A stretch of DNA of 39,895 bases from a virus. A program made the translations under genes and the position numbers. The DNA lies in the IMG/VR virus record IMGVR_UViG_3300020057_000078, positions 1 through 39,895 of that record; one strand, 5' to 3'. Every line of letters begins with the position of its first letter. Positions within the stretch are counted from its first letter, which is position 1. The notes beneath the pieces are model-generated. The model did no database searches. It saw nothing but the letters and a program-made list of their open reading frames with translations, and was not told the DNA's origin. Below are positions 10,034-29,823 of this stretch, in pieces.

Positions 10034-10218
10034 AAAAGTTATCCGTTACAACGGAAGAACGGTTTTTGATAGAGAGTGTCAAACAGCGTGCTATTCGTGA
10101 CAGTGGCCGCATTTATAAGGACGCACCAACCCTCAGAGAATCCTACTTGGGGTGGGAATCATGGCGTATGGCTGATCTGGCTGAAAGATTGGCGGATGAA
10201 TTGGAGGCTAAACCATGA
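10030..10218 (+). CDS. Small unknown protein (62 aa)
   Basis: Highly charged helical protein (TTEERFLIESVKQRAIRDSGRIYKDAP) with two Trp near residues 42 and 45. AGGAGG lies 11 bases upstream, a rather long gap since the minigene start comes first. Overlaps the following gene by ATGA. No family recognised. Confidence 0.55.
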   Translation: MKKLSVTTEERFLIESVKQRAIRDSGRIYKDAPTLRESYLGWESWRMADLAERLADELEAKP

Positions 10219-11190
10219 TTATCAATCGGAAATGGCTGGAACGTCATAATGCGTGCAATAACGGCAAAGAATGGTTTCTTGCTCAGAGAATTACAGATCC
10301 AGTCGACGGACTGATAAACCTGATTCAGAACGACAAACTAGACTGGGCAAATTGGCTCATCTTGCGTGTGATGACCAAACACCAGTGTTTGGCCTATAAG
10401 ATATTTTCAGCTGAGCAAGTGCTACCTATTTATGAGGCAAAACATCCAAAGGAACTAGAGCCACGCAAGGCTCTTGAGGCTGCAAAGGCTGTATTGGTGA
10501 ATGATACGGAGAAGACAAGAAGGGCAGCCGCCGCCTACATTGCCTACGCCAACTACGCATCATCCACTTACGCCGCCGACCCCGTAGCCGACTACGCATG
10601 GCACGCCGCCTACGATTACGTCTACGCCCACACCGCAGCCGCCGCCATCAACGCCAAAAAACAGATGCACCTTAAAATCCTGAACTATGGGGTGAGTTTA
10701 TTGGAGGAGGAACCATGATTATCAATCGGAAATGGCTGGAACGTCATGATGCGTGCAGTGACGTCAAAAAATGGTTTCTTGCTCAGGGAATTACAGATCC
10801 AGTCGACGGACTGATAAACCTGGTTCGGAACGACAAAATAGATTGGGCAAATTGGCTCATCGTGCGTGTAATGACCTGGCCACAGTGTTTGTCCTATTCG
10901 ATATTTTCAGCTGAGCAGGTGCTACATATTTATGAGGCAGAAAATCCAAAAGATCTACTGTTGCGCAAGGCGATTACGGCTGCAAAGACTGTATTGGCGA
11001 ATGATACGGTGGCGACAAGAAGGGCAGCCAACGCATCAGCCTACTCCTCAGCCGACGCATCAGCCGACTACGCCTACGCCGCCGACGCCAACACATCAGC
11101 CGCCGTCGCCGACAACGCCGCCGTCGCCGCCAAAAAACAGATGCAGCTTAAAATCCTGAGCTATGGGCTGAGTTTATTGGAGGAGGAATT
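10203..11190 (+). repeat. Tandem duplication of about 500 bp
   Basis: Two consecutive units (about 10203-10702 and 10702-11190) share their ribosome site, start, N-terminal domain and last 50 bases, differing mainly in the Ala-coding tract. It is the source of the two paralogous genes. Confidence 0.8.
10215..10718 (+). CDS. Duplicated Ala-rich-tail protein, copy A (167 aa)
   Basis: The first 95 residues form a conserved domain starting M-I-I-N-R-K-W-L-E-R-H-N-A-C with E-W-F at about 19-21, a start seen in many phage and bacterial hypothetical proteins. Residues about 98-145 are an Ala/Tyr/Asp-rich stretch, then a conserved end (KKQMHLKILNYGVSLLEEE). The next gene is a tandem paralogue: ends and N-terminal domain match closely, the Ala-rich part does not. 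Overlap ATGA on both sides. Function unknown. Confidence 0.65.
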   Translation: MIINRKWLERHNACNNGKEWFLAQRITDPVDGLINLIQNDKLDWANWLILRVMTKHQCLAYKIFSAEQVLPIYEAKHPKELEPRKALEAAKAVLVNDTEKTRRAAAAYIAYANYASSTYAADPVADYAWHAAYDYVYAHTAAAAINAKKQMHLKILNYGVSLLEEEP

Positions 11191-11194
11191 GTGA
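10715..11194 (+). CDS. Duplicated Ala-rich-tail protein, copy B (159 aa)
   Basis: Paralogue of the preceding gene with the same N-terminal domain (about 80 percent alike by eye) and the same C-terminal helix, but a shorter and differently ordered Ala/Ser/Asp/Tyr tract (residues about 106-140). The tract is GC-rich and made of degenerate GCC-GAC and GCA-TCA units, unlike the AT-richer flanks, so it likely changes by slippage or recombination. Function unknown. Confidence 0.65.
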   Translation: MIINRKWLERHDACSDVKKWFLAQGITDPVDGLINLVRNDKIDWANWLIVRVMTWPQCLSYSIFSAEQVLHIYEAENPKDLLLRKAITAAKTVLANDTVATRRAANASAYSSADASADYAYAADANTSAAVADNAAVAAKKQMQLKILSYGLSLLEEEL

Positions 11195-11520: not shown

Positions 11521-11768
11521 TTCCTTTGACATTCACAGACGAAGATTTAAGGCTAATGAAAAAAGCATTAGACGGGAAAGACTATATCCCGGAAGTCTGG
11601 ACGACCGATATTTCAGCCCTCATTGCCAGGCTGGAAGCGGCTGAGAAGGTAGTCGCCTGCCACATTCTCCTGGAACGAGAGATGATTAATTACGACTCGT
11701 TTATGTCGAACCTCAAAGCCTGGCGCGAGGTGGCTGGGAAACAACCAAAAGGCCAGAACGCTACTTGA
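11517..11768 (+). CDS. Small unknown protein, last gene of the rightward arm (83 aa)
   Basis: Coupled by ATGA. An acidic start with T-D-E-D-L-R-L-M-K-K-A-L, then a helix 'ALIARLEAAEKVV', typical of small phage ead/ea-type proteins ('LIARLEAAE' is common in these). It ends inside the last codons of the opposite-strand holin-like gene (8-base overlap). Confidence 0.5.
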   Translation: MIPLTFTDEDLRLMKKALDGKDYIPEVWTTDISALIARLEAAEKVVACHILLEREMINYDSFMSNLKAWREVAGKQPKGQNAT

Positions 11769-12024
11769 TGACCTGTGTGGATGTCTTGTTTAGAACAATG
11801 CCAACTGCGCCCAAAAGCGAGTAAATAAACGGGGGGATGTTCGGGAATCCAAAATACACGGCTGCCGACTCATACGCCCCGATCAGAACAATTGCAACCC
11901 CGTTCCAAATGCGTTTTGATGTGTACCAGTTTTTCGATCCAACTAACCGTGTTTCTGCCATATCATTCTCCAATTTTATTTTGCTCTTAATGAACCTTCC
12001 TGCAATCCACGCAAACAATTTCAT
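11761..12024 (-). CDS. Holin-like membrane protein (87 aa; or 66 aa from 11961)
   Basis: Two hydrophobic spans at about residues 42-60 and 64-78 follow an 'SKNWYTSKRIW' segment, a familiar start of small phage holins. A good ribosome site (GGAG) precedes an internal ATG at 11961 (66 aa), while the upstream ATG at 12024 overlaps the previous stop (TAATG); dual starts, as in holin/antiholin pairs, are possible. It is the last gene of the late arm. Role in host lysis is inferred from topology and place. Confidence 0.55.
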   Translation of the reverse strand: MKLFAWIAGRFIKSKIKLENDMAETRLVGSKNWYTSKRIWNGVAIVLIGAYESAAVYFGFPNIPPFIYSLLGAVGIVLNKTSTQVIK

Positions 12025-12272
12025 TACTTAGACTTAATCGCAGCTGCATCAATCGCCGCCTGAATGTCTGCATTGTCTCCGGTGATGTTCGCCGATATTG
12101 CGCTGATCGCCGCCACTTCTGCCGAGAAGTCCTCCGCGTTGGGAATAATCTCGATCTTTGCAATCAGATCATTAACCGCCGTAATCAACTGCCCCACTTG
12201 GGCCTTGTCTGCTGTGATCGTCGCGTCTAATTCCGAAATTGCTGCCTGTAATTCAACGAGTGTCTGTGCCAT
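12024..12272 (-). CDS. Small helical late protein (82 aa)
   Basis: The start is the ATG at 12272 behind AAGGAG; the frame continues upstream to 12350 with a hydrophobic stretch, but that start has no ribosome site. The product is Ala/Ile/Asp-rich with heptad-like spacing (LVELQAAISELDATI, LITAVNDLIAKI), so coiled-coil is likely. Placed between holin-like and signal-peptide genes. If the longer start is used it would be a membrane-anchored coiled coil like an inner spanin. Confidence 0.5.
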   Translation of the reverse strand: MAQTLVELQAAISELDATITADKAQVGQLITAVNDLIAKIEIIPNAEDFSAEVAAISAISANITGDNADIQAAIDAAAIKSK

Positions 12273-12346
12273 GTTTTTGTTGCTCCTTTTATTTTGTTCA
12301 CTGATAAGAACCAGTGCTGATATTACAGTGAAAAACAAAATGTAAA

Positions 12347-12982
12347 TCACGGTAGTATTTTAGGCGGTATCCCACCCCGTTGCGTGATGGTGCTTTTAAT
12401 AACATCATACCCGGTCAGGCACCCCTCTAGAAATGCGTTGGCAGTGCCTGTTTGATTCGTTTTATAGCCTCCGCACGTATTCGTTGACGAAGCATCGACC
12501 TTGTAGAAATTGATTAGTTGAAGGTTTGAATAGCGTTCTTCTTCCATCCCCATCACAAACCCATATGTCATGCAGCGATCAACCGCTGTCGCATTGGCAA
12601 TAGGAGAGCTGATAATCGGCGGTGAATAGTTTGTGTTTTTACCTAAAACAGTCAGGGCAAACGTATTTGCGAAAAATGGACTCTTAACTAAAGTCGCTTT
12701 ATATTGGGCTGTTGCAGAAGCAATGAATTCTGATTCAAGCGTGGCCGCCGAAGTCGAGAAGTAAACGTTAACGGTTGCTTCTGCCGAGGCTGAAAAGAAT
12801 AATCCGGCCCAGATAAATAGTAAACGACGAATCGTTTTATTCTTCTTTTGTCCGAGTTTTTTGTTACCCCGCATAAGCAACGGCAAAATGAAACATTTGG
12901 GTCTAAAAAAAAATGAACCCCATCCGAACAGCATAGAACTTTCAAAAGCAGAGTCGGTCCAACCTTTATCGTTTCCATTCAT
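12347..12982 (-). CDS. Exported or membrane-anchored late protein (211 aa)
   Basis: The ATG at 12982 has GGAG eight bases upstream and overlaps the previous stop. A basic stretch (residues 38-53) then 'LLFIWAGLFFSASAEA' look like a Sec signal with cleavage near residue 67; an inner start at 12874 would place it at the N-terminus, but has no ribosome site. The mature part has three Cys and an Asn/Thr-rich sequence. It is one of four late products with export signals. Unknown role; could be a lysis or cell-surface protein. Confidence 0.5.
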   Translation of the reverse strand: MNGNDKGWTDSAFESSMLFGWGSFFFRPKCFILPLLMRGNKKLGQKKNKTIRRLLFIWAGLFFSASAEATVNVYFSTSAATLESEFIASATAQYKATLVKSPFFANTFALTVLGKNTNYSPPIISSPIANATAVDRCMTYGFVMGMEEERYSNLQLINFYKVDASSTNTCGGYKTNQTGTANAFLEGCLTGYDVIKSTITQRGGIPPKILP

Positions 12983-13413
12983 TTACTCATCTCCGATGCG
13001 GAATATCCACCTAAAATAGTCAGCCAAACCTCTTCTTGGGGATCCTTAAACAAAGGCAGAATCACCTTGTCCATTGCATCAATGCTCCGATAGACGCTAA
13101 TCTTTTCCGCGTTACGAGCCTTGTCAAACCCAGGTAAAAAACATCCATCCGTATCCTCGACCACGTTACCGCTGTGAAAACGGATTCCAAAAAAAAGAGG
13201 GACGCCGATAAGTATAGGAAGCATGCGATTGAACCGACCGCTGCGAGTGAATTCAATGCGATATCGACCGTTCGGGATAGCAGTCTTTCCATAGATTTTG
13301 ACCTTTCTTACTGCATCTTCAAGGATGTTGCACTGATACTCGGAGCCAACGTAGAAGGCCCCTAGCGTCGCCTGAGTCGTGAATTCATGTCTTGCCAGGG
13401 TTGTTTCGATCAC
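12979..13413 (-). CDS. DUF5675-type protein, candidate lysis enzyme (144 aa)
   Basis: Start GTG at 13413 behind AAGGGG; the longer frame from 13563 would bury the zinc-ribbon gene. Conserved blocks of the DUF5675 family: 'CNILEDAVRK' (residues 28-37), G-K-T-A-I-P-N-G-R-Y (42-51), a G-V-P-L-F-F-G-I-R-F-H-S-G-N run (70-83), D-T-D-G-C (87-91). The His80...Gly-Cys91 pair recalls the H...(S/T)-x-G-C site of L,D-transpeptidases. No other lysozyme, amidase or peptidase is visible, so this may be the cell-wall enzyme; that is inference. Confidence 0.6.
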   Translation of the reverse strand: MIETTLARHEFTTQATLGAFYVGSEYQCNILEDAVRKVKIYGKTAIPNGRYRIEFTRSGRFNRMLPILIGVPLFFGIRFHSGNVVEDTDGCFLPGFDKARNAEKISVYRSIDAMDKVILPLFKDPQEEVWLTILGGYSASEMSK

Positions 13414-13582
13414 TTTTTTCCCCTTCTTCTCGAGGTGTCCCGTCCACTCGATTGTTCTGGATAACGTCAGCGAAAGGGAGCGAGACTTCAACACGGCATC
13501 CTTGCCTTGAACAGACAAGAACTTGCGCAGTAGCATTGTCAGAAAAGATCTCAAGCCTTTCATCGCAGCGAGGGCATCGCAC
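13385..13582 (-). CDS. Small zinc-ribbon late protein (65 aa)
   Basis: GTG start at 13582 with GGAGG upstream, right after the previous stop. C-P-R-C at residues 3-6 and C-S-R-Q-G-C at about 24-29 form a zinc ribbon of the kind common in small phage proteins; the second half is charged and disordered. It overlaps the DUF5675 gene by 29 bases. Confidence 0.6.
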   Translation of the reverse strand: MRCPRCDERLEIFSDNATAQVLVCSRQGCRVEVSLPFADVIQNNRVDGTPREEGEKSDRNNPGKT

Positions 13583-13849
13583 TTACTTCCTCCTGATTTC
13601 CCTGAGAATCGCTTTTATATCCGAACGCATTTCGGGCATTTCCTTAACCACTGCTTCTAAAGTCGCAATCTGTTTTGACTGTTCGTTGTTGATCTTTTCA
13701 CCGTCGTCAACGCGAACGCTGATCCCTGAAATTGTACTGCTGGCAATGCCTAACGCAAACGCGAGAGTCACAATACCCATAATCACAGGCCAGAATTTCA
13801 TGGCTTTGGCTACCCCGGCGTCGTCCCATCTTTGTTTAGTGTCGGACAT
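13583..13849 (-). CDS. Membrane-anchored coiled-coil protein, spanin- or XhlA-like (88 aa)
   Basis: One membrane span at about residues 19-38 is followed by a coiled-coil region (DGEKINNEQSKQIATLEAVV) to the end. This topology fits phage inner-membrane lysis partners such as XhlA or i-spanins. Ribosome site GGAGGGG. No outer-spanin lipoprotein is seen next to it. Confidence 0.55.
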   Translation of the reverse strand: MSDTKQRWDDAGVAKAMKFWPVIMGIVTLAFALGIASSTISGISVRVDDGEKINNEQSKQIATLEAVVKEMPEMRSDIKAILREIRRK

Positions 13850-16342
13850 TTATAGGGCCCCTCCGCCTGCCAGTACCACCGATGCGGAAAATTGGCGTAC
13901 CGCTGTTCCGACCCCTGTTAGAACACCTGTGGTCGGAGCTGTGCCAGAAGTCCCTGCCTCTACGGCACACCCGAGATTACTACCACCAGTGCCAAAACGT
14001 GTGAGTGTAACGGCCACTGTGTTGAAGGTTAGCGCGTAGTAATAGATGCCGGGGAGTAGACCAATCGCTGTAGTGAAAGCAGTTGTCCGTAACCCTGTCC
14101 CTGCAACAAGGACACTCCCAGAGTTGGCAAGTCTGGTCCCGTAAATATCCATGATTGCCACGTCGATACGTCCATTGACTCCTGTGGCACCAACGTCGTA
14201 TCGTATTCCGGTTGCAAAGACAGGTTCGGTAACGGTCAGGGGGCAGTAGTGAGTGTTTGAGGAGATTGCCGTACCAGCGGCTGAGTTTGGTTCTGCGATA
14301 TTTCCAAGGAACGCTGTCTGGTATGGCAACGGACCGTCTGCATACCACTTGGTCAGTCCGTCACTGATGAGCTTTATTTTTTGACCCGGTGCGAACATGT
14401 TGACTGCGCGTGTAGACTGGATCATGTCAGTCCCAGCAGACTCGACACGGATAATAGCTGAGGATCTATCGACCTTTGCAATCAGGATACTTTGTCCTAG
14501 CCGAGTATTCGCGGCTGGCAGAGTGAACGTAATGCGCCCGGCGTTTAAGGCGGCACTGGCAAAGATAACCGAGTCACTCCCGGTTAGTGTCGTTGTCGTT
14601 GTCACAACACGGGCCCCTGAATAGTACATCCCACTGTTAAACGATATTGTCCCAACACGGACTTCCGACTCAAAAGTCGCCGTGCTTTTGGCAGTAAAGA
14701 AATTGGTGACCGTAATGCTGGATGTGAACGTCGTAATGTTTGGTTGCAGAGCATTCGCTGTAGTAGTAAGTGATCCTCCCGCGGTCGTAATAGCACCCGT
14801 CAAAATAGGGAAGCTGGCCGCTTTGAGCTGGCCTGTGACCTCCGCACCGGTTAGGTCAATGTCAGGCCCCAGTTTCGTCACACTGGACCCGTCAATCACA
14901 GCGAGAGGCACAAAAGAGAATGCGTTTGTCTGGACGAGCTGAGTCGCCCCGTTGAACGTGTTGGCCTGTAAGGTCACACTGGACGAGTTTAGCTCAAGGA
15001 AGGCCGTCGCCCCGCCTCGGAGCGTGACCATAAAAGTGGTTGAGCTGGCGTTGATGACGGCTGTAGGTGAGGAGGTTGGTACGCCTGTCCATCCCGTGGC
15101 TGTGCCTGTGGTGACGGCGAGAGTGGAAGAACCGCCACCCGCCGCGGGGGTTGTCCACGTGGGGGCTCCTCCAACGCCTGTCGTGAATACTTGCCCGGAA
15201 GTCCCCTGCGCACCGTTGAGAACCACGTTTGAACTGACCACCACCGTTCCCGCGAACGTCGTTGAGGACGTCGATGTTTTACCGCCTGTGATAGTTTGCG
15301 TTGATGCAAGGATCATGTCCCCGGTCCCGGACGCAGTTGTCCACGTCGGGATTGTTCCTGCGCCGCCGGAGGTGAGAAACTGGCCGGATGAACCGGCTGA
15401 GTTGCTGGCGATTAACCCGCTGGATATGCCGACGGTCCCGTTGAAGGTTGCGCTACTAGCAACCGTCACGGCTCCTAAGCTTCCAACGGTGAGCAACTTC
15501 GTAGTATTGTCCCCACGAATTAACTGAAAAATGTCGCCAGTATCGTTTGTATCGTTAGATGTTATACGGAACAATGGGAGAGATTGAACACCGGCAATAG
15601 AACCTCTGCTGAAATTAAAGGACGCAGCAGTGTCCGAGGCGTTTTCTCCAAATCCAAAAGAAGGGGCAGAGTTACCTCCTCCAACGGTTAAAACCTTTCT
15701 CCTGTTTGCTGACAAGCCATTTGGAGTCAGCCATAAATCAAAAGTTTCTCCGCTTGCTCCGTTATCTACAAATTCCAACGACCCTTGTTCAAATTGTCCT
15801 GACGCTCCCTCTGTAAAATAAATCCTAGACCCTGTACCAGTCCCAGAGGTTCCTATATTCCGCACTTCGATAATTGTGCTGATTACGCTGTTTTCACCAC
15901 CGTATGCGATCAATTTTTTTCCAACAGTCCCGTCACCAACAAAAACAGAGCTTGAAACAGTCAACAACCCTGCAATAGACCCACTCGACATTTGAATCGT
16001 CGTACCGCTTAACAATCCTGTGACATTGAGCGAAGAGGTGAACACCCCAGTACTGGCCGTAATCCCCTGCCCCGCCACGAATGTCCCGCTGGATGGGTAG
16101 TTCCAGTAGTTCGTTGCCCCGCCAGGGAGAGGAAGGGTTGCTGCCCCGCCACCCCCTCCGCCGCCGGTCGTAATCGTTGCGGTTTGCCCATTGCATGTAA
16201 GTGTTCCCGGAGAAACCTTAATCTGCCCAGCCATGCAGGAAGGGGAAAGGTCAGTCTCGGTCACGCGAATCGTGTCCTTAAACCCGGTGTCTGCAAAAGA
16301 AAAGGCAGACAGCAAAGTCAGCAAAATCGCTTTACGCACCAT
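13850..16342 (-). CDS. Large fibre-like protein with Sec signal peptide (830 aa)
   Basis: Residues 1-17 form a standard signal peptide (M-V-R-K, hydrophobic core, SFA before Asp18). A seven-Gly run near residue 60 leads into Ser/Thr/Gly-rich repeats with recurring strand units (SSSVTLQANTFNGATQL type) for about 550 residues, then a distinct C-terminal domain from about 690 with beta-sandwich character (NTHYCPLTVTEPVFATGIR), as in receptor-binding tips. It looks like a tail fibre or an elongated adhesin. Such low-complexity fibres are also found in secreted bacterial proteins, and transfer from a host surface protein is possible. Confidence 0.6.
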   Translation of the reverse strand: MVRKAILLTLLSAFSFADTGFKDTIRVTETDLSPSCMAGQIKVSPGTLTCNGQTATITTGGGGGGGAATLPLPGGATNYWNYPSSGTFVAGQGITASTGVFTSSLNVTGLLSGTTIQMSSGSIAGLLTVSSSVFVGDGTVGKKLIAYGGENSVISTIIEVRNIGTSGTGTGSRIYFTEGASGQFEQGSLEFVDNGASGETFDLWLTPNGLSANRRKVLTVGGGNSAPSFGFGENASDTAASFNFSRGSIAGVQSLPLFRITSNDTNDTGDIFQLIRGDNTTKLLTVGSLGAVTVASSATFNGTVGISSGLIASNSAGSSGQFLTSGGAGTIPTWTTASGTGDMILASTQTITGGKTSTSSTTFAGTVVVSSNVVLNGAQGTSGQVFTTGVGGAPTWTTPAAGGGSSTLAVTTGTATGWTGVPTSSPTAVINASSTTFMVTLRGGATAFLELNSSSVTLQANTFNGATQLVQTNAFSFVPLAVIDGSSVTKLGPDIDLTGAEVTGQLKAASFPILTGAITTAGGSLTTTANALQPNITTFTSSITVTNFFTAKSTATFESEVRVGTISFNSGMYYSGARVVTTTTTLTGSDSVIFASAALNAGRITFTLPAANTRLGQSILIAKVDRSSAIIRVESAGTDMIQSTRAVNMFAPGQKIKLISDGLTKWYADGPLPYQTAFLGNIAEPNSAAGTAISSNTHYCPLTVTEPVFATGIRYDVGATGVNGRIDVAIMDIYGTRLANSGSVLVAGTGLRTTAFTTAIGLLPGIYYYALTFNTVAVTLTRFGTGGSNLGCAVEAGTSGTAPTTGVLTGVGTAVRQFSASVVLAGGGAL

Positions 16343-16539
16343 TTAATCCCGTCCTCAATCCCCTTGCGGTAGATGTATTCAAGTTCAGCGTTCCCTCTTA
16401 AACTATGTAAAGCAAAATGCGCGTCGTTCTTGTCCTGCTGAATCTTCTGCCATTCCAGTTCGATTTCACGTGCCATGCCGACCAACCGAAAGAATCTGCG
16501 AATGAGTAATACCCGAGCAACAAAGTGTTTAAAGATCAT
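16318..16539 (-). CDS. Small basic late protein (73 aa)
   Basis: Overlaps the fibre start by 25 bases and begins at the previous stop. The N-terminus is hydrophobic and Arg-rich (FKHFVARVLLIRRFFRLV), the rest helical and charged. Possibly a membrane-associated or fibre-assembly helper. No family recognised. Confidence 0.45.
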   Translation of the reverse strand: MIFKHFVARVLLIRRFFRLVGMAREIELEWQKIQQDKNDAHFALHSLRGNAELEYIYRKGIEDGIKWCVKRFC

Positions 16540-16838
16540 CAGTGCAAATCAAAATTAACGCGATACGTTCCGTCCTGAGATGCGCTTTCAATCAGAACTG
16601 TGCGCAGGATACCCAGACTCAGTTCCAGCATTTCCGAGACAGTCCCTGTATTTCCCGTTCGCTTTACCATTACGTCCCCATTGGCATCTTTAAACGTGAC
16701 ATCAAACGTGTCCGTCTCAGCAATGGGATGGACTCGAATCCATCTGGCAATAGTCCACTCGTTCGTTAATGTTCCTGTTCCGGTTCCTGAACTGACCGTG
16801 ATATCGAGGCGACGGACCTGTTGTTTACCGGGAGCCAT
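16539..16838 (-). CDS. Small beta-rich late protein (99 aa)
   Basis: Strand-rich with Thr/Gly turns (DITVSSGTGTGTLTNEWTIARWI ... FDVTFKDANGDVMV), a likely small beta-barrel or sandwich that could be a virion decoration or fibre connector. Starts inside the end of the upstream internal-protein gene (14-base overlap). Confidence 0.5.
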   Translation of the reverse strand: MAPGKQQVRRLDITVSSGTGTGTLTNEWTIARWIRVHPIAETDTFDVTFKDANGDVMVKRTGNTGTVSEMLELSLGILRTVLIESASQDGTYRVNFDLH

Positions 16839-18330
16839 TTGATTTCCTCGACAGATATTCGTCCATCAGTGCCTTTTTTTGTTCTGGCGTTCTTTGAGTC
16901 CCCATAGCTGTTGCACGAATGCCACCAGTGGCGATACTTGATCGGACTCCTGATCTGTTCCCCTGCCTAAGGAGATTCGAAATAGAGTCAAGTGTTGTCG
17001 CGCTTAGTTGATGTCCAAATTTGTGATAGATACGATTAGCAAGGTTGTTTACGATTGAATTTCGACTGCCACCAACTTCATATGCAAGACGCTGCTGGTT
17101 TATCGTGTCCATCTTCGACAAATCGCCATAGTCCTGAAGGTTCTTCCGATATTCCAGCCCTTTTTGAGGAGGAAGGCCCTTTATCAGGGCCTCGTCATTG
17201 ATCCGCGAGACAGTGTTTGCAACATCTGTGTCAGCACCAGAAGGCTGAAGCATCTGGGATTTACTTTTTGCGTGCTTGTTTATTTTCGTTGCCACATCAG
17301 CAACAGAGTTAAATGTTGTTGGTCGATGAAGGTCGTATTCTGGAATGAAATTAGGATCTTCCTGGAATTGCCTGAATCGCAGATACTCTTCTTGTGGAGT
17401 TAGTTCGGAGTGCTTCATAACTGAGAATGGATCAGCATCTTTTGACGCAACACCGTTTTTAATTGTCCCCTTTTGCATCCGTGGAATCATTTCTTCCGTA
17501 GGGGTTAATTTATCGACGTTCTCCAACTTCAATACTTCTTCAATTGCCTTTTTAAGGTCCCCCTGTTCGCCAGACTGGATGCCTGTCTTGTATTTGGGAG
17601 ATACATCCTGATAAATTGCTTGGACAATCTTCTTGGCTTCCGGAGAGTCAGTGTAAAGATCTCCGAGTCCACGCAACGAACCAATTCTTTCTCCTGATTG
17701 TTTTTGAAGTTTCTCAATCATGGCGTTTTGCGATTCAGGACTATTCCAAGCGGTGATGATCCCCTTGTTCTTTGCTGCTCTTCCGAGACGGAGCGTTTCT
17801 TCTGCCCCTAGTTCTTTGGCATGGGGAAGAGTTCCACCTAACCCTTTAAACCAGCGAGAACTTGCGCTCTGTTCGGCTTTGGCAGCTACCCCTTCAACGG
17901 CAGACGATAATTTTGCGGCAGGAATTCCTCTCGCAGAAGGAATAAGCATGTACGGTGCATTTTGAACGACTGCGCCCAATCCAACGCCAAGCGCTTGCCC
18001 TGTTTTGGGATATCCTGCTTTTACTCCGAGTTCGCCGCCTTTTTCAGCAATATAGTCCCCGGAATCTGAGATTGCTTTTGCGACGACGCCTAGTCCCTTC
18101 ATGCCGTAGTGAACAGCTTCTGGTCCTACGAAGGCCCCGGCGAATTCTGACGCGCCCTTAACAAAGGGTTCCAACACAGCGTTTTGCGCCTTACTAGAAA
18201 CATCTGCCACCCTGTCTAATAAGGAAGGCTGATATGGCTTGGCCTGCTGAACGGACTGCTGTTGCGCCTGCTCCTGCTCCTGCTCTAGCCTTAAACGGAA
18301 CTTAAACTTCTGCTCTTGTGATAACTCCAT
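16825..18330 (-). CDS. Internal virion/ejection-type protein (501 aa)
   Basis: Gln-rich charged start (residues 5-30), an Ala/Gly-rich hydrophobic middle (about 60-160) and a long helical remainder. The last 17 residues contain A-L-M-D-E-Y-L-S-R-K-S-N-G, nearly the same as a peptide near the start of the neighbouring 368-residue protein. Size, helicity and place between nozzle and fibre genes fit podovirus ejection proteins (T7 gp14-gp16 or P22 gp7, gp16, gp20 in role). No lytic domain seen. Confidence 0.55.
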   Translation of the reverse strand: MELSQEQKFKFRLRLEQEQEQAQQQSVQQAKPYQPSLLDRVADVSSKAQNAVLEPFVKGASEFAGAFVGPEAVHYGMKGLGVVAKAISDSGDYIAEKGGELGVKAGYPKTGQALGVGLGAVVQNAPYMLIPSARGIPAAKLSSAVEGVAAKAEQSASSRWFKGLGGTLPHAKELGAEETLRLGRAAKNKGIITAWNSPESQNAMIEKLQKQSGERIGSLRGLGDLYTDSPEAKKIVQAIYQDVSPKYKTGIQSGEQGDLKKAIEEVLKLENVDKLTPTEEMIPRMQKGTIKNGVASKDADPFSVMKHSELTPQEEYLRFRQFQEDPNFIPEYDLHRPTTFNSVADVATKINKHAKSKSQMLQPSGADTDVANTVSRINDEALIKGLPPQKGLEYRKNLQDYGDLSKMDTINQQRLAYEVGGSRNSIVNNLANRIYHKFGHQLSATTLDSISNLLRQGNRSGVRSSIATGGIRATAMGTQRTPEQKKALMDEYLSRKSNGSR

Positions 18331-19436
18331 TACCTCTTACCGCCATTTTTTTGTGCCTTGTACTCCTGATAAGCAGCCTCTTCGTCTGGATTGGAATAGC
18401 TTTGACTGCCCTGCGGCATCTCTGGCAGAACTGTTCTCTTCCAGTTCTCATAATGTGTTTTGATCTCATTGAGTCTTTGGCTCAACTGTTCAGGGGATTG
18501 CGCCTGATCCAGTTCTGCGATAGTCGCGCTGAGGAGTTTTAATTCTCTGTCAGAAACATTGCCTAGAGCCCCGCCTGTCGGAGAGTTCCGGCGCATTTCT
18601 TGAAGGGTGTTAAACCCCATGTTTGCTTTGATCGTGTCGATATCGGCAGCAAGATTTCTAGCAGGTGTGCCCGGGATAGATCCCAACTTAGAACCCATAC
18701 CAGCAGTCCAGCCGCTAACATTGCTCAGGGCTTGGTCAACTTTGTTCATGACGAGATCAGCCTGGCTGATTGAGTTCTGAACCAGACTTTGTTCCTTTGC
18801 ATCAACTCTTGCGTTTTTAATTGCTGCGGGACCACCTGGGATTGGCTCTAGTTCTCCAGAAGTGGTGTATCTATACCCAGTCGGGGCCTTTAGATTTCCA
18901 TCAGCACTTGGTGGCGTTAGAATCCGATCATTCTTATTGACTGAGAAAAGTTTTTTCCCAGATTTGTCGTAAACATCTTCTGGCGTATTCGGATCAGTCG
19001 CCAGATCCCGCTCCATCTTCTGGATCTGAAGGTTCTTTGCGTACTGTTCCATCCCGTATTTGCTAGTCGGTCGACCCGTTGGACGCATTCCGCTGGGAGC
19101 CTGAGATTGACCGCCCTGCATCGAGTCCCAGTAATCAATGATTGACGATCCCTCAGGATTCTCAGTGGGAATGGTGATCCCGTATTGTTCAGCAACCTGT
19201 GGGATTTGATCCTCAGGAACATAGTGAGCAACCGCTCCGAACTGAGTGGCTTTGCGGGTTGCATCCTGAGATGCCAGTTGTTGCTTCTGGATATCCTGGG
19301 CCTGCTGTTGCTGCTTCATCTGGACGTAAGTATTGAGCCCCCCCTGAATCCCTTCCGATAATTGCTGACCAGCGGATTTTCGACTCAGGTACTCCTGCAT
19401 TAACGCAGGATCCATCCCTCTAAATTGAAGTGCCAT
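18330..19436 (-). CDS. Internal virion/ejection-type protein (368 aa)
   Basis: Starts M-A-L-Q-F-R-G, then D-P-A-L-M-Q-E-Y-L-S-R-K-S (about residues 9-21), then a Gln-rich helix (QMKQQQQAQDIQKQQLA) and a helical C-terminal half. The start abuts the previous gene's stop region. Likely packed inside the capsid or in the tail channel and released on infection. The shared peptide with the next protein may be an incorporation signal. Confidence 0.55.
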   Translation of the reverse strand: MALQFRGMDPALMQEYLSRKSAGQQLSEGIQGGLNTYVQMKQQQQAQDIQKQQLASQDATRKATQFGAVAHYVPEDQIPQVAEQYGITIPTENPEGSSIIDYWDSMQGGQSQAPSGMRPTGRPTSKYGMEQYAKNLQIQKMERDLATDPNTPEDVYDKSGKKLFSVNKNDRILTPPSADGNLKAPTGYRYTTSGELEPIPGGPAAIKNARVDAKEQSLVQNSISQADLVMNKVDQALSNVSGWTAGMGSKLGSIPGTPARNLAADIDTIKANMGFNTLQEMRRNSPTGGALGNVSDRELKLLSATIAELDQAQSPEQLSQRLNEIKTHYENWKRTVLPEMPQGSQSYSNPDEEAAYQEYKAQKNGGKR

Positions 19437-19444
19437 ATTCCCCC

Positions 19445-20497
19445 CTAGTACCCTTGAATTCCAGTTTGTGCTGCTCCACCCAAACCACTGCCAATCTGAT
19501 AACCTGCCTTTGCCCCGGTAGGCCCCCAGATAGCACCCAACCCACCGCCAATAAGCCCGCCAACCATTTGACCGACTCCATTACTTCGCTTCCCGTACTT
19601 CCTTAGATACTGGTCATATGCTTGTTTCTGCGTGTTGTAGTCCTGCATCTCGTTTAAGCGTCCATAAGTGCGGTCAGCCGTGAAAGCATTCCGATCTCTG
19701 GAATAATCCTGATTCCCGTAGTAGCGATTGAGCGTGTCCTGATAGTCGCCACGAGCGTTCGCGGTCTGGTTTTGGTACTGACTTGCTGAAAGGTTTGATA
19801 GGAACGATTCCCGGTTGTTCGACTGATCCTGAGCAGCTAAGGCGAGAGCCGACGCATACCCTGAAGAATCAACACTCCTGCCTTGTTGAAGGAACTTGTT
19901 TTGAATGGAGGGCATGACCTTGTCGGAGAAATACTGCTGGTTCTGGGTATCCAGTTCGCCAGACAATTGAGTCCGAAATTCTTTATCCTGCTTCCGAACG
20001 CTGTCCGGCAACTGATTGACGAACTGCCCTAGCTGGTAAGCATCTAGCTGACCAGACGCCATCAGCGACCCAAAATGCTCCTTCTCCTGATCGCTTGCGG
20101 CGCGGCCAATAGAGGACTGAAACATCTGGTCAATAGACCCGTAATGCTGAGGTGCGTTTTTCTTGTATTCATCTTTCTGGCGAGCCGCCTGCTTATCAGG
20201 GCTATTCTGAATCTGGTTGTAATACTGCCCCACAAAGGCTTTCCCACCGGATACATTGGCAACATTGGGATCGTCAGACATATAAGCCGCTGATACCTGT
20301 GCCAACTCTGATTTGGTCGGGAGTCTCCCGAACATGGACTGGAAATCGGTTGCAGCATAATGTTCGGCAGCCTGCTGAGACCCGCCACGCCCACCATATT
20401 CCGGGATGTCAGGGATTAGCTTCTCCCCGTTGTAGGTTCCCGGATCGCTTACCTTGCCACCTTGGACAACACCTTTTTCAGATATTTCCTTACTCAT
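19445..20497 (-). CDS. Internal virion protein with DUF4214-like units and Gly zipper (350 aa)
   Basis: Two segments (about residues 50-95 and 115-160) share the pattern F-Q-S-x-x-G-R-x-x-x-x-x-E, like DUF4214 repeats. The middle is Gln/Asn/Tyr-rich. The C-terminus (about 305-350) is a glycine-zipper run (MVGGLIGGGLGAIWGPTG) able to insert in membranes, as in DNA-ejection proteins. A GGGGG ribosome site follows the hairpin terminator at 20515-20560. Confidence 0.55.
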   Translation of the reverse strand: MSKEISEKGVVQGGKVSDPGTYNGEKLIPDIPEYGGRGGSQQAAEHYAATDFQSMFGRLPTKSELAQVSAAYMSDDPNVANVSGGKAFVGQYYNQIQNSPDKQAARQKDEYKKNAPQHYGSIDQMFQSSIGRAASDQEKEHFGSLMASGQLDAYQLGQFVNQLPDSVRKQDKEFRTQLSGELDTQNQQYFSDKVMPSIQNKFLQQGRSVDSSGYASALALAAQDQSNNRESFLSNLSASQYQNQTANARGDYQDTLNRYYGNQDYSRDRNAFTADRTYGRLNEMQDYNTQKQAYDQYLRKYGKRSNGVGQMVGGLIGGGLGAIWGPTGAKAGYQIGSGLGGAAQTGIQGY

Positions 20498-20514
20498 TTG
20501 ATTCCCCCATAAAT

Positions 20515-20560
20515 AAAAAGCGCGGCGTCAGAAGGTCAGGCTCCTGACAGCCGCGCTTTT
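20515..20560 (-). terminator. Bidirectional hairpin within the late operon
   Basis: AAAAGCGCGGC at 20516-20526 pairs with GCCGCGCTTTT at 20550-20560, with an inner GTCAGG-CT-CCTGAC hairpin (20535-20548). On the leftward transcript it ends in five T and lies just before the ribosome site of the 350-residue protein. It may attenuate or process the transcript between tail and internal-protein genes. The gene-free gap is about 120 bases. Confidence 0.7.
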
Positions 20561-20617
20561 AAAATCCTGCTATTCGTTACTTACCCATATTCGGCAATAA
20601 AATCAATACGTCTACTT

Positions 20618-21184
20618 TTAACGGACCCGCCTTGCTGACAGCCGCCCATAGCGGGTAGGCGTGGCTGCCGTATATTCAAGATACCCTTTTAAATAAACCG
20701 TAGAGTTTCCAGAAAGCGAGATTCGATACGACGGAATACTTAAACTTACGTAGTTCTGGGTAGTACCAGCGGCAGCGGGGTAGTAATATATGTTGCTTGA
20801 TCCTGGTACAAGCCCTGTCCCGCTATTACCAGAGGTTTGACTGATTCCGATTTCAATCCCAGTCCACGACGCTCCATTGCGGAGATACATACCAATCCCA
20901 GTAACATCCCAATCACCAGCAGTGAGTGGAATCGATGTAATGTCAAAATATTGTGAAGCCGTCCCTACGCTGCCAGACGGTACGACCGACTCAACATATT
21001 CTCCGACCATTCCAGCGGCAGCGGCATCACCCGCAGTTGTCCCACGAATTCCTGAAGATAAAACACCCCTGATGTCCTTATAAATGTTGTTAATCTCATC
21101 ATCCAGTTTTGCATCTGAATACCCATACCTAGGTCCTCCTGCGAAGGCTGTGGACGAAAGGAGTAATAACAGTAAAGTTTTCAA
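20618..21184 (-). CDS. Fibre/receptor-binding-like protein with signal peptide (188 aa)
   Basis: TTG start at 21184 in a TTGA overlap with the nozzle gene. Residues 1-15 are a clear signal peptide (LLLLLLSSTAFA then Gly). The rest has 'GDAAAAGMVGEYVES' and 'ITSIPLTAGDWDVTGIGMYL', motifs common in small phage tail-fibre ends with a jelly-roll head, and a final 'YGRLSARRVR'. It probably decorates the tail tip and binds the cell. The signal peptide is odd for such a protein. Confidence 0.6.
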   Translation of the reverse strand: MKTLLLLLLSSTAFAGGPRYGYSDAKLDDEINNIYKDIRGVLSSGIRGTTAGDAAAAGMVGEYVESVVPSGSVGTASQYFDITSIPLTAGDWDVTGIGMYLRNGASWTGIEIGISQTSGNSGTGLVPGSSNIYYYPAAAGTTQNYVSLSIPSYRISLSGNSTVYLKGYLEYTAATPTRYGRLSARRVR

Positions 21185-23928
21185 TTGCTTGGCCTGTATG
21201 GCTGAGGCTCAAATGTCATCCGGAACCCTAAGAATTCCCATTGTCCAGTAGTCGAGTTGTCAGACACTTTGTAGTTGAACGTGTTCCCGAACTTCCCGGA
21301 TGGAAGCAGCTTCTTATTCACGATCATTGTTTGTGTGGAGCTGGATAAGCCAACAGAGAACGAGGTGGAGGTGGTCGAAGTGTTTAGGGCATAGGCGACA
21401 GTTGCAGTCGCATTTTCCGTCTTTGTGAAATAACTGTCCAGTTGCTTATATTGATTCTCCATCCACGGATCTTGACCCGTGAAGTCCTTGGACTTCCAGT
21501 AAGAATTGATGGCGGTTCCATTGTCGGAGTTCTGTGTGCCGAACTTGAAGGCATTGCCGGCTGCGGTATCTCCAAAGTAAAGAGAGTTGTTCTGTACAGC
21601 AAACCCGCCCGTTCCAAAATTGTAAATAGACCAACCATCGTTAATCAAGTCATTTTTGAAAATGTAATTGTTCGTTGCTTGCCCTGCGCCATAAGCCACG
21701 GAGAACCAGATCGAATTGTCAAAGTAGATGCTGTAAGCCTGGTCAGAAGCAGAACCTTCAAACCAGTTCACTGAGAAATCATTTAACGTTGGAGTGGCTG
21801 TTGCTGTCGTTATTGCGAAGTCTGCCCTGACTTGGAAGTATGTTCCTGTTGATGCAGAGACAAGCCCACCACCGGCTTGAGAAACCCATGTTGGGGTTGC
21901 TGACAAAACAGTGAACACGCTCGTGGATGCACGCATGAAGTATGTATGAGATCCACCATTATTCTGGACGTTTGCACCAAACGTACTCCATTGGGCTAAA
22001 TTAGGAGCGTTTCTTACTGCTGAATAAAATGTTCCAGAGGATGAGGCAATCAGAGTTACATCATTAAGCGTTGTAAGAGGAAGTTCATTCCCAGAAACAG
22101 TGAAACTTGCCACGTACCGAGCATACCGGTTCGACTGCGTATTCGTCCCTGAACTTAAAGAGAGTGTTGTCCACGCACCTAAGGTAGATGTCGCATGTTG
22201 AATAATGAAAATAGGCGTTGAACTGTTGAGTGTCCACGATGCTTGTCCTTGGACAAGGGCTGTGTTGAATCCAGTATCGTAAACCTTTGAAGTATAGCTC
22301 CCTGCCGTGATTGTGCTTGACCCTCCGCTTACATTGTCAAAACTGCATGACTTCTGTGTCCCAAGAGTCCCGTTATTGCAGGAATAATAGTAGGAAACTG
22401 TTCCACTAAACATATAACTAGCCTTCGTTGTTGCCGTTGACATATATGTGCCAAAAAGCCCACCAGATAAACAATTATCTGAATATTGAAAGAAAACAAA
22501 TTTTACGCGTTTGCCAGTATTTGCTTCCGACGTAAATGTTTGTTCAGTCCAACCGCATGAATTATTTGTCGCTGTTGTTTGTTTTGTGTCTAAAATATTC
22601 CCATTAAAATCGACAATTTTTACACCATAAGCTGTATTGCACTCATTAAGGGCTGAATTACCTGCTCTTCCGGCACGTAAAAATTGGGAACCAGATTGCG
22701 GAGATAATGTGCAACCAGAATACGCTTCCGAAGTATCAAAAAAAGGCTGTGGGGATACACTTACATCAAAATTAGTCCCAATGGTACCCTCAAAACTTTG
22801 GTCTGTAATGGTCCCAGAGTTGTTTGTAGAAATCTGGATTGAAGATGAATTTATTGTGAGATTCACAATGGTTCCTGAGTTAAAAGAAGAAGAGTCTGTC
22901 TCAGTAACAGAGAAGCTAGACGGAACAATAGACCCAGAAAGAATTGCTGTACTTAATGAAACAGAGGGAGGGTTTGACGAAACTGCCCCTGCTGCGAAAT
23001 CGCTCTGACTCGTCTGTGTCCAGAGATTAGATACACGCTTTGTCGATGCCTGTGTCAGCGGGGTAATTTCGATAGATTCCTTCGTCAAAGCCGAACAGTC
23101 ATACTTCCAGATATTCCCATCCTGCCCACGAAACCAGACAGACCCACCAGGATCTAATGCGGATGTATTATCAAAAGTGCCTACGTTGTCCGAAACGATG
23201 TTGTTCTCAATGTTGAACTGGTCAGATCCATTGAGATAACCAAAAGACTGATCTTTCCACCAGAGAAGCTTTCCACAGCCCCATCGGATATGGGTGATCT
23301 TAGACCCCTGAGAAGCAATGACTTCGGAGAAAGGGCTCGTAACCTGAATACCATTAACGAAGTTTGTGAAGACTCCGGACTCTGAGAAATGAATCGTGTT
23401 TGGTGTTCCCGATACGCCAGCAACTACTATCCGCTCCGGCGTTGCCTCTACCATGGTCCCCAGCGGCGTGGAATACCACGTTCTTGTAGCCCCATCTGTT
23501 CTGAGATACATGTTTCGGCTGGATGTGACACAGTAGGCGTTGCCCTGCGTATCCGCACAGTCCCATGTCGTATTCAGCGTTGCGGATGAAACGAGCTGAA
23601 CCGGCGTCGCATCAGCAGTAATGCCATAAAGAGAAGTGCTGGAACCCCAGACTTGAACGTCATTGCCGGAAGAGTCGAAAAAGTGCGCTCCCCCGCGTAT
23701 ACTTTGGCCTGTTGCCAAAGCCTTGTAGAGCCCGTATCCAGGCCGTTTTTTGACTGACTTGCCACCCGGTGTTACGTCAACGTTAAGAAGATCCTGCGCC
23801 TGATTCGGATCAATAACCAGACTGGATTCATTATTATTAATGAGTTTAAACGATTGAACCTGTACGTTCTCTGAAAAGCAGAACGTGGATAACAGGACCA
23901 TCAGTAGTGAGAGTTTATTTCGCAACAT
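21181..23928 (-). CDS. Tail nozzle/tubular protein B-like with signal peptide (915 aa)
   Basis: Start ATG at 23928 (14-base overlap with the adaptor gene) gives residues 1-19 as a signal peptide (LSLLMVLLSTFCFS). The following 'DPNQAQDLLNVDVTPGGKSV' and KKRPGY are the hallmark N-terminal block of phage nozzle/tail tubular B or stabilisation proteins, with beta-propeller-like strands to about 310. A long Ser/Thr/Asn-rich middle (about 330-690) resembles inserted carbohydrate-binding or fibre domains, then propeller-like repeats return. Larger than T7 gp12 (about 790). Confidence 0.6.
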   Translation of the reverse strand: MLRNKLSLLMVLLSTFCFSENVQVQSFKLINNNESSLVIDPNQAQDLLNVDVTPGGKSVKKRPGYGLYKALATGQSIRGGAHFFDSSGNDVQVWGSSTSLYGITADATPVQLVSSATLNTTWDCADTQGNAYCVTSSRNMYLRTDGATRTWYSTPLGTMVEATPERIVVAGVSGTPNTIHFSESGVFTNFVNGIQVTSPFSEVIASQGSKITHIRWGCGKLLWWKDQSFGYLNGSDQFNIENNIVSDNVGTFDNTSALDPGGSVWFRGQDGNIWKYDCSALTKESIEITPLTQASTKRVSNLWTQTSQSDFAAGAVSSNPPSVSLSTAILSGSIVPSSFSVTETDSSSFNSGTIVNLTINSSSIQISTNNSGTITDQSFEGTIGTNFDVSVSPQPFFDTSEAYSGCTLSPQSGSQFLRAGRAGNSALNECNTAYGVKIVDFNGNILDTKQTTATNNSCGWTEQTFTSEANTGKRVKFVFFQYSDNCLSGGLFGTYMSTATTKASYMFSGTVSYYYSCNNGTLGTQKSCSFDNVSGGSSTITAGSYTSKVYDTGFNTALVQGQASWTLNSSTPIFIIQHATSTLGAWTTLSLSSGTNTQSNRYARYVASFTVSGNELPLTTLNDVTLIASSSGTFYSAVRNAPNLAQWSTFGANVQNNGGSHTYFMRASTSVFTVLSATPTWVSQAGGGLVSASTGTYFQVRADFAITTATATPTLNDFSVNWFEGSASDQAYSIYFDNSIWFSVAYGAGQATNNYIFKNDLINDGWSIYNFGTGGFAVQNNSLYFGDTAAGNAFKFGTQNSDNGTAINSYWKSKDFTGQDPWMENQYKQLDSYFTKTENATATVAYALNTSTTSTSFSVGLSSSTQTMIVNKKLLPSGKFGNTFNYKVSDNSTTGQWEFLGFRMTFEPQPYRPSN

Positions 23929-24622
23929 GGATATACCCACTGTTCCAATACCGCCCACCTGATAAACGTTTTGGTTCTGCTGCCTCTAGTGCCTTAAAGG
24001 TTTGGATAACCTGGTCCAGAACCCCGTTGGCAATGTTTTTGTAATCTTCCGACTTCTTCGCATTGGCTGTGCTTGGATCTCGGAGCAAAAGTCGCGCCGC
24101 AGCGTCATAAGCCAATCCATAGTCATACGGCGTTGTTAGGAAACTGGAAGATCCCGCATACCACTGAAAAGGCCTGTCAGTCGAGGCGGACATGGGGATA
24201 TGGGCTGTAATTGTTTCGTAAACGAGAGACTTCCCTGCGTCGGCAGAAGTGGGCGTGGGGTACAAATAGATGCGTTCCACGCCATAGGAAACGTCGATAT
24301 AGTAGATAGTCGGCGTCCCTGTATGTGCCGACCAGTTAGTTCCTGTGTAGAGATCCATCCAGGCTTTGCTTCTTTTTTTTAATGGTAGGGAATCCAGCGT
24401 AACCCGATCATACGCCAGCACAATATTGGTCGTAGTCAGACCAAAATAATTACTTCCGTCAGCAATTACCGAACTAGTTGTTAATTTAAGAATCTTTGCT
24501 GAAAGATTCCATTTGGTCTGGCTATTCCCAAGTTCTGCGTTAATGTCAGACAAAGAGTACCTGTCATAATTAGGATCATTGGTTAACGCGCCAACCTGGG
24601 CTTGAAGTTCTGATAAAGTCAT
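23915..24622 (-). CDS. Head-tail adaptor, tail tubular protein A-like (235 aa)
   Basis: Helical N-terminus (SELQAQVGALTNDPNYDRYSL), a beta-rich centre with 'YYIDVSYGVERIYLYPTP' near 120-140, then 'YDYGLAYDAAARLLLRDPS' helices. This is the pattern of T7 gp11/P22 gp4-type adaptors that ring the portal. The nozzle gene follows, as in other podoviruses. GAGGTGG ribosome site. Confidence 0.6.
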   Translation of the reverse strand: MTLSELQAQVGALTNDPNYDRYSLSDINAELGNSQTKWNLSAKILKLTTSSVIADGSNYFGLTTTNIVLAYDRVTLDSLPLKKRSKAWMDLYTGTNWSAHTGTPTIYYIDVSYGVERIYLYPTPTSADAGKSLVYETITAHIPMSASTDRPFQWYAGSSSFLTTPYDYGLAYDAAARLLLRDPSTANAKKSEDYKNIANGVLDQVIQTFKALEAAEPKRLSGGRYWNSGYIHVAK

Positions 24623-25839
24623 ATAAGCACCACCTCTTCATCCAGCGCATCTTGGGGAACCGACACATTCGCCAGTTTCTTTAAGAGCCGGAGATATTTT
24701 GGAGCGTTCTTCTGAACGTTAAAATCTTTCTTAACGCGCTTGTAGGCGTTATTCCCGATTGTTTCGCGTCGGGCTTGATCTTTAATAAGGCCAACCAAAG
24801 AGGCGTACCACTCACCCAAGTTTTCTGCCTGAACGAGACAACCGTCGTTCCCATTCCTGATGGTGTGCGTGTAATGCCCCACATCCGAGGCAACAGTCGG
24901 GATCTTTAAGGCTGAGTATTCGAGCCATCGGAGGTTTGACTTTGAACGGTTGAAATTACAGTCGACGAGTGGCGCGATTCCAATATCGAAACCAAAAGAA
25001 GCTGCAAACTTGGCGTAACGGTTAATAGATACGGAATTGTCCGAATAATGAACATTCTTAAGTCCTTCAAATGGGTAGTCCCGCTTCAATGCTTCACAAG
25101 AGGATTTAAGAGCAGAATTGACGAGGCAAAGCGTCACGCTTGGATACTGGAATAAGATCTCGCGCAATGCGGGAGCGACCATCATCAAATCGTTAAAGTG
25201 AGATCTCCCGCCAATCCAGCCAATCCGAGTTCCCCGGTGCTTTCGTACTGCAACAGTATCCCAACCAACAAACTTGCGATCCCCTTTAAAGTCTATGGAG
25301 TTTTCAATCAGGTAAATGTTGTCATTCATCTCTGCGTAGGTTTGCGCTAGATGAGGGGTTGTCACCATGACTGCATCGGCGTTTCGCAATGAGTCCATCC
25401 CCATGCGCCGATAAGGGCTACCGTTACGGAACGAGTGATAGGCTTCGTTCCAAGGTGGAACGTCTACGTAGTTGTCGTCCATTTCGATGATGAATGGCTT
25501 CTGATGTTTGTGCTGCATCTCTAAAAAGAATTCAAAGGACCAGTCATAGCTCATGGGATGCCAGATGACGATATCTGCCCACTCACAAGCCTGGTCGATC
25601 CTAAATCGGATGTACTGCCCTTCGGTCAAGCCTTCCGCCCTTGACGACGGATGCACGGACTTGAAATCTTCCTGCCAAGTCTGAAGTGTGGAGGGGTCGC
25701 TGTCATAGCGAAACCACATAAGGGCGACTTCTATTCCTTTGTATTTCCGCATCTCAAATGCCCATGCGGCCATGCGGTAATAATTAACCCCGTCCATTAG
25801 TGACGGGATCATGGCAACCTTAAGCTTAGGCTTCGACAA
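24619..25839 (-). CDS. GT-B glycosyltransferase, GT4-like (406 aa)
   Basis: A TTG at 25839 is taken as start because it gives a full first strand (KLKVAMIPSLMDGVNYYR). Two Rossmann halves: N-terminal with 'DIVIWHPMSYDW' and 'PFIIEMDD', C-terminal with 'RIGWIGGRSH' and a donor-binding 'FDIGIAPLVDCNFNRSKSNLRWLEYSALKIPTVAS' order near 270-315 (Glu in 'LEYSALKIP'). These features are typical of retaining GT4 enzymes that use nucleotide sugars. Overlaps its neighbours by 14 and 4 bases, so co-translated with the other sugar genes and the adaptor. Confidence 0.75.
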   Translation of the reverse strand: MSKPKLKVAMIPSLMDGVNYYRMAAWAFEMRKYKGIEVALMWFRYDSDPSTLQTWQEDFKSVHPSSRAEGLTEGQYIRFRIDQACEWADIVIWHPMSYDWSFEFFLEMQHKHQKPFIIEMDDNYVDVPPWNEAYHSFRNGSPYRRMGMDSLRNADAVMVTTPHLAQTYAEMNDNIYLIENSIDFKGDRKFVGWDTVAVRKHRGTRIGWIGGRSHFNDLMMVAPALREILFQYPSVTLCLVNSALKSSCEALKRDYPFEGLKNVHYSDNSVSINRYAKFAASFGFDIGIAPLVDCNFNRSKSNLRWLEYSALKIPTVASDVGHYTHTIRNGNDGCLVQAENLGEWYASLVGLIKDQARRETIGNNAYKRVKKDFNVQKNAPKYLRLLKKLANVSVPQDALDEEVVLI

Positions 25840-26518
25840 GGTAAGTTTCCTTCATCTTATTCACTTCATTCTGATCCCTTGTTGCCATCGTGTTATCGTC
25901 TGTTAAACGGTAATAGCTCAAAGCATTCCGCACGTTCTTAATTTTGTAGCCAGCGCGGTACGCATCCCACTGGAATTTCCAGTCATCCAAACCAAGACGG
26001 CTCCACTCGCCTTCGCTGTATTTGATCTCGTTCGCCAGCTTCTTTGTGTAGGCCATGGTTGAGTGACAAATAAAGTTCAATTTCTTTTCTTTGGAAACCT
26101 CAGGATCAAACGGGCTTGAAACAATCTTCTGGATTGTGTTGCCCATCGAGTCCACAGTAAAGAACGAGCCATACATAAGATCCGGTTTCTTTAGTTGGAA
26201 GGTCGCGATCGTATCGTTCACGCGGGTGCGAGCAGCCATGTCATCCGCATCGAGGACCAGAATCAGGTCAGACTGTGCAGCTTCATTGCCAAAATTACGA
26301 GCCGCAGAGCGTCCACGGTTTTCTGTGTGGTAAACACGGATTCGTTTGTCTTCCTTTTCATGGAAATCCAGGATGTCTTTGGTCGAATCCGTAGAGCCAT
26401 CATTGACCACGATAATCTCAATTGTCTTAACCGTCTGATTCCGGCAGGAATAGAGAGCTTTGGAAATCCATCGGTCGGCGTTATATGCGGGAATTACAAA
26501 AGAGGCACGAGGCGTCAT
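25826..26518 (-). CDS. GT2 family glycosyltransferase (230 aa)
   Basis: Classic GT-A/GT2 features: FVIPAYN at residues 7-13, V-N-D-G-S-T-D at 38-44, R-G-R-S-A-A-R-N near 68-75, and the metal-binding L-D-A-D-D at 89-93. A later D-D-W near 177-180 may hold the catalytic base. Inverting transfer from a nucleotide sugar, in the cytoplasm. No membrane segments, so soluble. Coupled by ATGA to the neighbours. Confidence 0.8.
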   Translation of the reverse strand: MTPRASFVIPAYNADRWISKALYSCRNQTVKTIEIIVVNDGSTDSTKDILDFHEKEDKRIRVYHTENRGRSAARNFGNEAAQSDLILVLDADDMAARTRVNDTIATFQLKKPDLMYGSFFTVDSMGNTIQKIVSSPFDPEVSKEKKLNFICHSTMAYTKKLANEIKYSEGEWSRLGLDDWKFQWDAYRAGYKIKNVRNALSYYRLTDDNTMATRDQNEVNKMKETYLVEA

Positions 26519-27978: not shown

Positions 27979-27989
27979 GCTGTTCTCCG

Positions 27990-29792: not shown

Positions 29793-29800
29793 AAAGTGTG

Positions 29801-29823
29801 CCGGGTGGATTTTCGCCACCCGG
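29801..29823 (-). terminator. Stem-loop just after the capsid gene
   Basis: On the leftward strand CCGGGTGG and CCACCCGG pair over eight bases around CGAAAAT, 20 bases past the capsid stop. No T-run follows, so rather an mRNA-stability or partial-termination element that lets capsid mRNA exceed the sugar genes. Confidence 0.5.

Follow-up and report, generated by a model that had tools for sequence, protein, structure and literature searches.

A clade of uncultured short-tailed viruses has tail nozzles and receptor-binding fibres that begin with Sec-type export signals, which suggests, judging from the sequences, that these viruses send tail parts out of the cytoplasm. The window, the whole stretch of DNA that was analysed, is one complete virus record of 39,895 bases, whose late genes lie on the minus strand in the order terminase, portal, N4-gp56-type capsid, sugar-modifying enzymes and SU10-type adaptor (PF24175), followed by a 915-aa protein that we assign to the tail nozzles, a 188-aa protein, three ejection-like proteins, an 830-aa protein and the lysis region. 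Tailed-phage assembly is taught as cytoplasmic, and a clade with export signals on its only nozzle gene and on all of its receptor-binding proteins would break that rule. The relevant features of the window are as follows:

23915..24622, minus strand: head-tail adaptor without a signal (PF24175 SU10_adaptor, E 3.3e-12; signal score -6.9), its stop codon overlapping the nozzle start
21181..23928, minus strand: tail nozzle protein, 915 aa, with an N-terminal Sec-type signal (Foldseek matches to nozzles; directly after the SU10-type adaptor gene; 22-member family)
23872..23928, minus strand: signal peptide MLRNKLSLLMVLLSTFCFS of the nozzle, with cleavage predicted before ENVQ and no canonical start within 40 codons after the leader
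23530..23559, minus strand: invariant nozzle cysteine pair C124/C133 (22 of 22 sequences)
23095..23277, minus strand: second nozzle cysteine pair C218/C278 (six nozzles have both; every other nozzle with residues at these positions lacks both)
20618..21184, minus strand: tail fibre, 188 aa, with a signal, a constant anchor segment and an exchangeable C-terminal jelly roll (phrog_11393 tail fiber, E 2.6e-16; family alignment; Foldseek)
21140..21184, minus strand: fibre signal peptide MKTLLLLLLSSTAFA, TTG start, score 10.5, predicted cleavage before GGPR
13850..16342, minus strand: large fibre-like protein, 830 aa, with a signal (relatives in loci L011 and L014 share parts)
16292..16342, minus strand: large-fibre signal peptide MVRKAILLTLLSAFSFA, score 8.7, predicted cleavage before DTGF
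12979-13563: DUF5675 gene of the lysis region
12347..12874, minus strand: orphan predicted-exported protein, 175 aa, with a signal from the internal ATG at 12874 (one signal-bearing homologue, in L006)
11761..12350, minus strand: holin-like and i-spanin-like genes (holin by membrane profile only; i-spanin by a weak phrog_739 match)

N-termini were scored with a small Sec scorer trained on 37 known E. coli signal peptides. The scorer is crude and no substitute for SignalP (leave-one-out median 12.9, tenth percentile 7.0); on an annotated stretch of E. coli K-12 it ranked the exported FkpA, ChiA and GspD first, second and fourth and gave one cytoplasmic protein a score of 7.07. An earlier note on this DNA had read Sec signals in the products starting at 23928, 21184, 16342 and 12982. 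The first three readings hold, each N-terminus combining a basic n-region, a hydrophobic h-region and a small-residue cleavage site, with the signal of the window nozzle being moderate (its score of only 4.3 is below that of 90% of the E. coli controls, and Ser stands at -1). The fourth holds in altered form: a signal is missing when translation starts at 12982 (score -6.5), but from the in-frame ATG at 12874 a long basic n-region leads into the strong signal MRGNKKLGQKKNKTIRRLLFIWAGLFFSASA, with cleavage predicted before EATV (score about 10). The description of this protein as a virion-type product gained no support: it is an orphan adjoining the lysis genes. The remaining late genes of the window score at most 2.6, except for the i-spanin-like gene (12024-12350) at 5.9, which we attribute to its membrane anchor, and none reaches 6. 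We also considered lipoprotein (SPase II) signals and rejected them, since none of the window's four leaders has a lipobox at the end of the h-region; among the relatives only one nozzle, that of L008, has one (LAGC), and this case is ambiguous.

The observation is real and reaches well past the window. A nozzle search of IMG/VR yielded 15 contigs, two wider nozzle searches yielded three more, and a capsid-gene search that was blind to the nozzle yielded 80 loci, five of them with new nozzles; the resulting set comprises 22 non-redundant nozzle sequences at about 31-77% identity to that of the window. In each of the 22, the conserved core is closely preceded by a hydrophobic leader that ends in a small-residue site; most leaders begin with basic residues, and D, E, G, Q or A follows the site, within a few residues of the core. 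Distant leaders share little sequence identity. The five nozzles retrieved through the capsid gene all have the leader, and a Sec-type signal is found in every fibre encoded next to the nozzle (15 out of 15). Across 111 further late proteins encoded by the relatives, the score never rose above 3.9, a value exceeded by 9 of the 17 scored nozzles and by 12 of the 15 fibres (Mann-Whitney p ~1e-8 and ~2e-9, respectively); the other 8 nozzles lie at or below this best negative. In distant capsid relatives, about 1% of genes score at least 7. Because the window nozzle scores weakly by itself, conservation across the family is the stronger argument for that copy, and on the sequences as a whole the signals on nozzle and fibres are very probably genuine Sec signals. 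That they are chance hydrophobic N-termini or the product of wrong starts is true of the 12982 start and could be argued from the several nozzle leaders that lack a usual start codon, but the conservation throughout the family and the clean negatives make it extremely improbable as a general explanation. Separately, in one distant relative (L078:3580-4679, plus strand) the capsid gene is followed closely by two adjacent genes for small proteins, both with strong signal peptides.

The 915-aa protein appears, from its predicted structure, to belong to the podovirus tail nozzles and would then be present in virions. Its AlphaFold2 model is modest (mean pLDDT 63) and global TM is low; nevertheless, the first 16 Foldseek hits in the PDB all come from podovirus tails (E 2e-10 to 3e-6), with the nozzles of Pa223, LME-1, Carin1, A4, SU10, Pan3, T7, VP1 and P22 among the top matches, and a viral fold library returned nozzle or gp10-like names and nothing further. 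The gene lies directly downstream of the PF24175 adaptor, in an order that is identical in relatives. At the sequence level, T7 gp12 did not align to the nozzle profile, the only cultured relative found for the nozzle was Bacillus phage Pascal, a weak homologue (E 1e-10), and the adaptor of L010 matched no cultured phage. Within the capsid-tail operon lies a cluster that encodes glycosyltransferases together with a methyltransferase and a sugar aminotransferase-like protein (24619-29819 and 36452-37708, minus strand), of which the glycosyltransferases are retained in most relatives. Elsewhere in the window (10215-11194, plus strand), two tandem overlapping ORFs share a near-identical N-terminus, MIINRKWLERHxAC, and are probably a recent duplication.

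The family of the 188-aa protein appears, from its alignment, to have the usual build of a receptor-binding protein, with the N-terminus as anchor. Its constant segment (GPKYxYxDPxLDxExxNIYHDI), with the conserved start GGPKY directly after the cleavage site, is followed by C-terminal ends that vary among relatives (a phrog_11393 tail-fibre domain, tail collar, pectate-lyase tailspike, C1q-like or lectin-like), so that this gene combines a conserved anchor end with an exchangeable receptor-binding end. The window copy, which has no cysteine at all, is modelled as a helix plus a TNF-like jelly roll, as in lectins and phage fibre tips (Foldseek). For the 830-aa large fibre we found no Pfam or PHROG match and no match among cultured phages; its relatives in L011 and L042 retain the signal together with an N-terminal cysteine pair. 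The signal-bearing large fibre of L039 (17095-20179, plus strand) includes a polysaccharide deacetylase domain.

The nozzle cysteines fall into two pairs. C124 and C133 probably face each other in a predicted hairpin, as they lie on the AlphaFold2 strands 122-127 and 130-135, and the six nozzles with C218 and C278 fall in two separate branches (one of the six on a separate branch). Disulfide-bonded cysteines typically leave such patterns in alignments, and these would fit folding outside the reducing cytoplasm, with the caveat that conserved cysteine pairs may exist without disulfides. The three ejection-like proteins (window 16825-20497, minus strand) are cysteine-free, as they are in L008, L010, L012, L013, L029, L039 and L042 (0 cysteines in 24 proteins and 10,320 residues from eight genomes), possibly because these proteins have to cross the periplasm without forming disulfides.

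Relative to the adaptor stop, the nozzle leader starts at a point between about 13 bases upstream and 6 bases downstream, and either alternative frame is used. In about eight nozzle relatives this start would be ATC, CTG, GTC, unrecognisable, or a usual codon that truncates the leader. At L013:9971, L014:9965, L042:8998, L012:9986 and L049 near 17830, the leader could start only from an ATC, CTG or GTC located at the adaptor stop, and these nozzles may use coupled, non-canonical initiation; the likeliest reason for the odd starts is that initiation is coupled to termination of the adaptor. Two observations led us to reject a programmed frameshift from adaptor to nozzle: some relatives have the nozzle in frame -1 and others in +1, and the leader is invariably located at the adaptor stop. 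Internal initiation of a leaderless nozzle was likewise rejected as a rule, since a usual internal start is available in only 7 out of 22 nozzles, is not conserved and is absent from the window.

From these observations we favour a mechanism, to which we give about an even chance, in which the tail parts are exported, cleaved, folded in the periplasm and joined to filled heads at lysis. The nozzle, the 188-aa fibre and probably the large fibre would be synthesised in the cytoplasm and exported through Sec; signal peptidase I would cut their leaders, and they would fold in the oxidising periplasm, where the nozzle would form at least one disulfide bond. Heads with only portal and adaptor would be filled with DNA in the cytoplasm, and once the holin opened the inner membrane they would meet the exported nozzles and fibres, the tail being completed during lysis. 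Accumulation of nozzle and fibres outside the inner membrane is, taken by itself, probable: the idea in the earlier note that these proteins are exported and act there gains indirect support from leaders that are kept as a property rather than as a sequence, from SPase I-like sites before the core and from the nozzle cysteine pairs. Of these steps, joining at lysis is the one we are least sure of. It is feasible, since for several phages heads and tails can join in lysates. P22 heads without the nozzle-type gp10 lose DNA, so an untailed head here would need another plug, and retention of DNA in such a head is the main difficulty of the mechanism. The several nozzle leaders without a usual start codon and the 8 out of 17 nozzles that do not exceed the best negative also count against it, as does the cysteine-free 188-aa fibre of the window. 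We therefore advance only tentatively, at somewhat below even chances, the wider claim of a tailed-phage lineage that builds its tail outside the cytoplasm, with nozzle and receptor-binding proteins that are exported through Sec, oxidised in the periplasm and attached at the onset of lysis.

The chief rival to this mechanism is that some nozzle and fibre escapes export and builds virions in the cytoplasm, and that the exported remainder serves to mask receptors or block superinfection. Cultured phages do have signal-bearing fibre-like proteins beside signal-free virion fibres (BcepC6B gp19 and PBR31 orf035), and the unusual start codons would lead to low synthesis of the leader. However, how an exported nozzle would contribute to masking is not obvious, the fibre retains directly behind its leader a constant segment typical of virion attachment, and no internal start is conserved, which counts against the simplest form of this explanation. 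We regard the explanation as unlikely. Receptor masking alone, one of the roles suggested earlier, leaves the signal on the sole nozzle gene unexplained, and co-option of the signals from host secreted fibres, also suggested, gains no support: the nozzle is not a host-type fibre, and the leader is present in every sampled member of the clade.

It is quite unlikely, in our view, that the leaders stay uncleaved and hold the tail parts at the inner membrane, with virions finished on the cytoplasmic side. Hydrophobic N-termini by themselves would suffice for this, and such leaders would match the membrane anchoring proposed in the earlier note; the conserved small-residue site, followed by its characteristic residues shortly before the core, fits less well, as does the fibre GGPKY that starts directly after the site, and the cysteine pairs would be left unexplained. 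A host with unusual export handling (e.g. an oxidising or atypical compartment), whose rules the phage simply follows, would accord with the uncultured status of all clade members and with our search of 84,980 genomes, in which neither capsid nor nozzle matched a cellular genome. This is very unlikely, however, as leaders are missing from the capsid, adaptor and ejection proteins and from the enzymes that these genomes encode.

If true, export and joining at lysis would link tail maturation to lysis and to disulfide formation, and would make it directly testable where and when heads and tails join; we know of no parallel to periplasmic tail assembly among tailed phages. Cleaved Sec signals are present on virion coat proteins of filamentous phages (pIII and pVIII), but these phages are extruded through the envelope, whereas the window is a podovirus with an N4-gp56-type capsid, terminase and portal. 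A signal peptide is also found on late-region phage proteins of the envelope, such as lambda Lom (PMC12309495), but these are not tail parts. Among tail proteins, PBR31 orf035 has a Sec-like leader (score 13.0) and a C-terminal domain that matches the window's 188-aa fibre by direct hit, BcepC6B gp19 has a Sec-like leader (9.5) and a C-terminal domain linked to that fibre through PBR31, and a Manatee Spring phage has a single accessory fibre-like protein with a leader (10.0). Leaders on fibre-like proteins thus exist elsewhere and are little remarked on in the open-access papers searched; our searches of these papers turned up no tail nozzle described as having a signal peptide. BcepC6B and PBR31 each have one accessory protein with a leader, and the nozzle and tailspike of PBR31 have none, unlike this clade. 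The window nozzle resembles T7 gp12, the SU10 nozzle and P22 gp10 in fold class, size and position directly after the adaptor, but signal peptides are absent from the known nozzles compared here (T7, PBR31, Pascal and a Manatee Spring phage), and the Pascal nozzle, although homologous, has neither a leader nor an alignable cysteine pair, in contrast to all 22 nozzles of the clade. Leader and cysteine pair together offer a simple sequence marker for more such phages, and among the phages compared, leaders on nozzles occur only in this clade.
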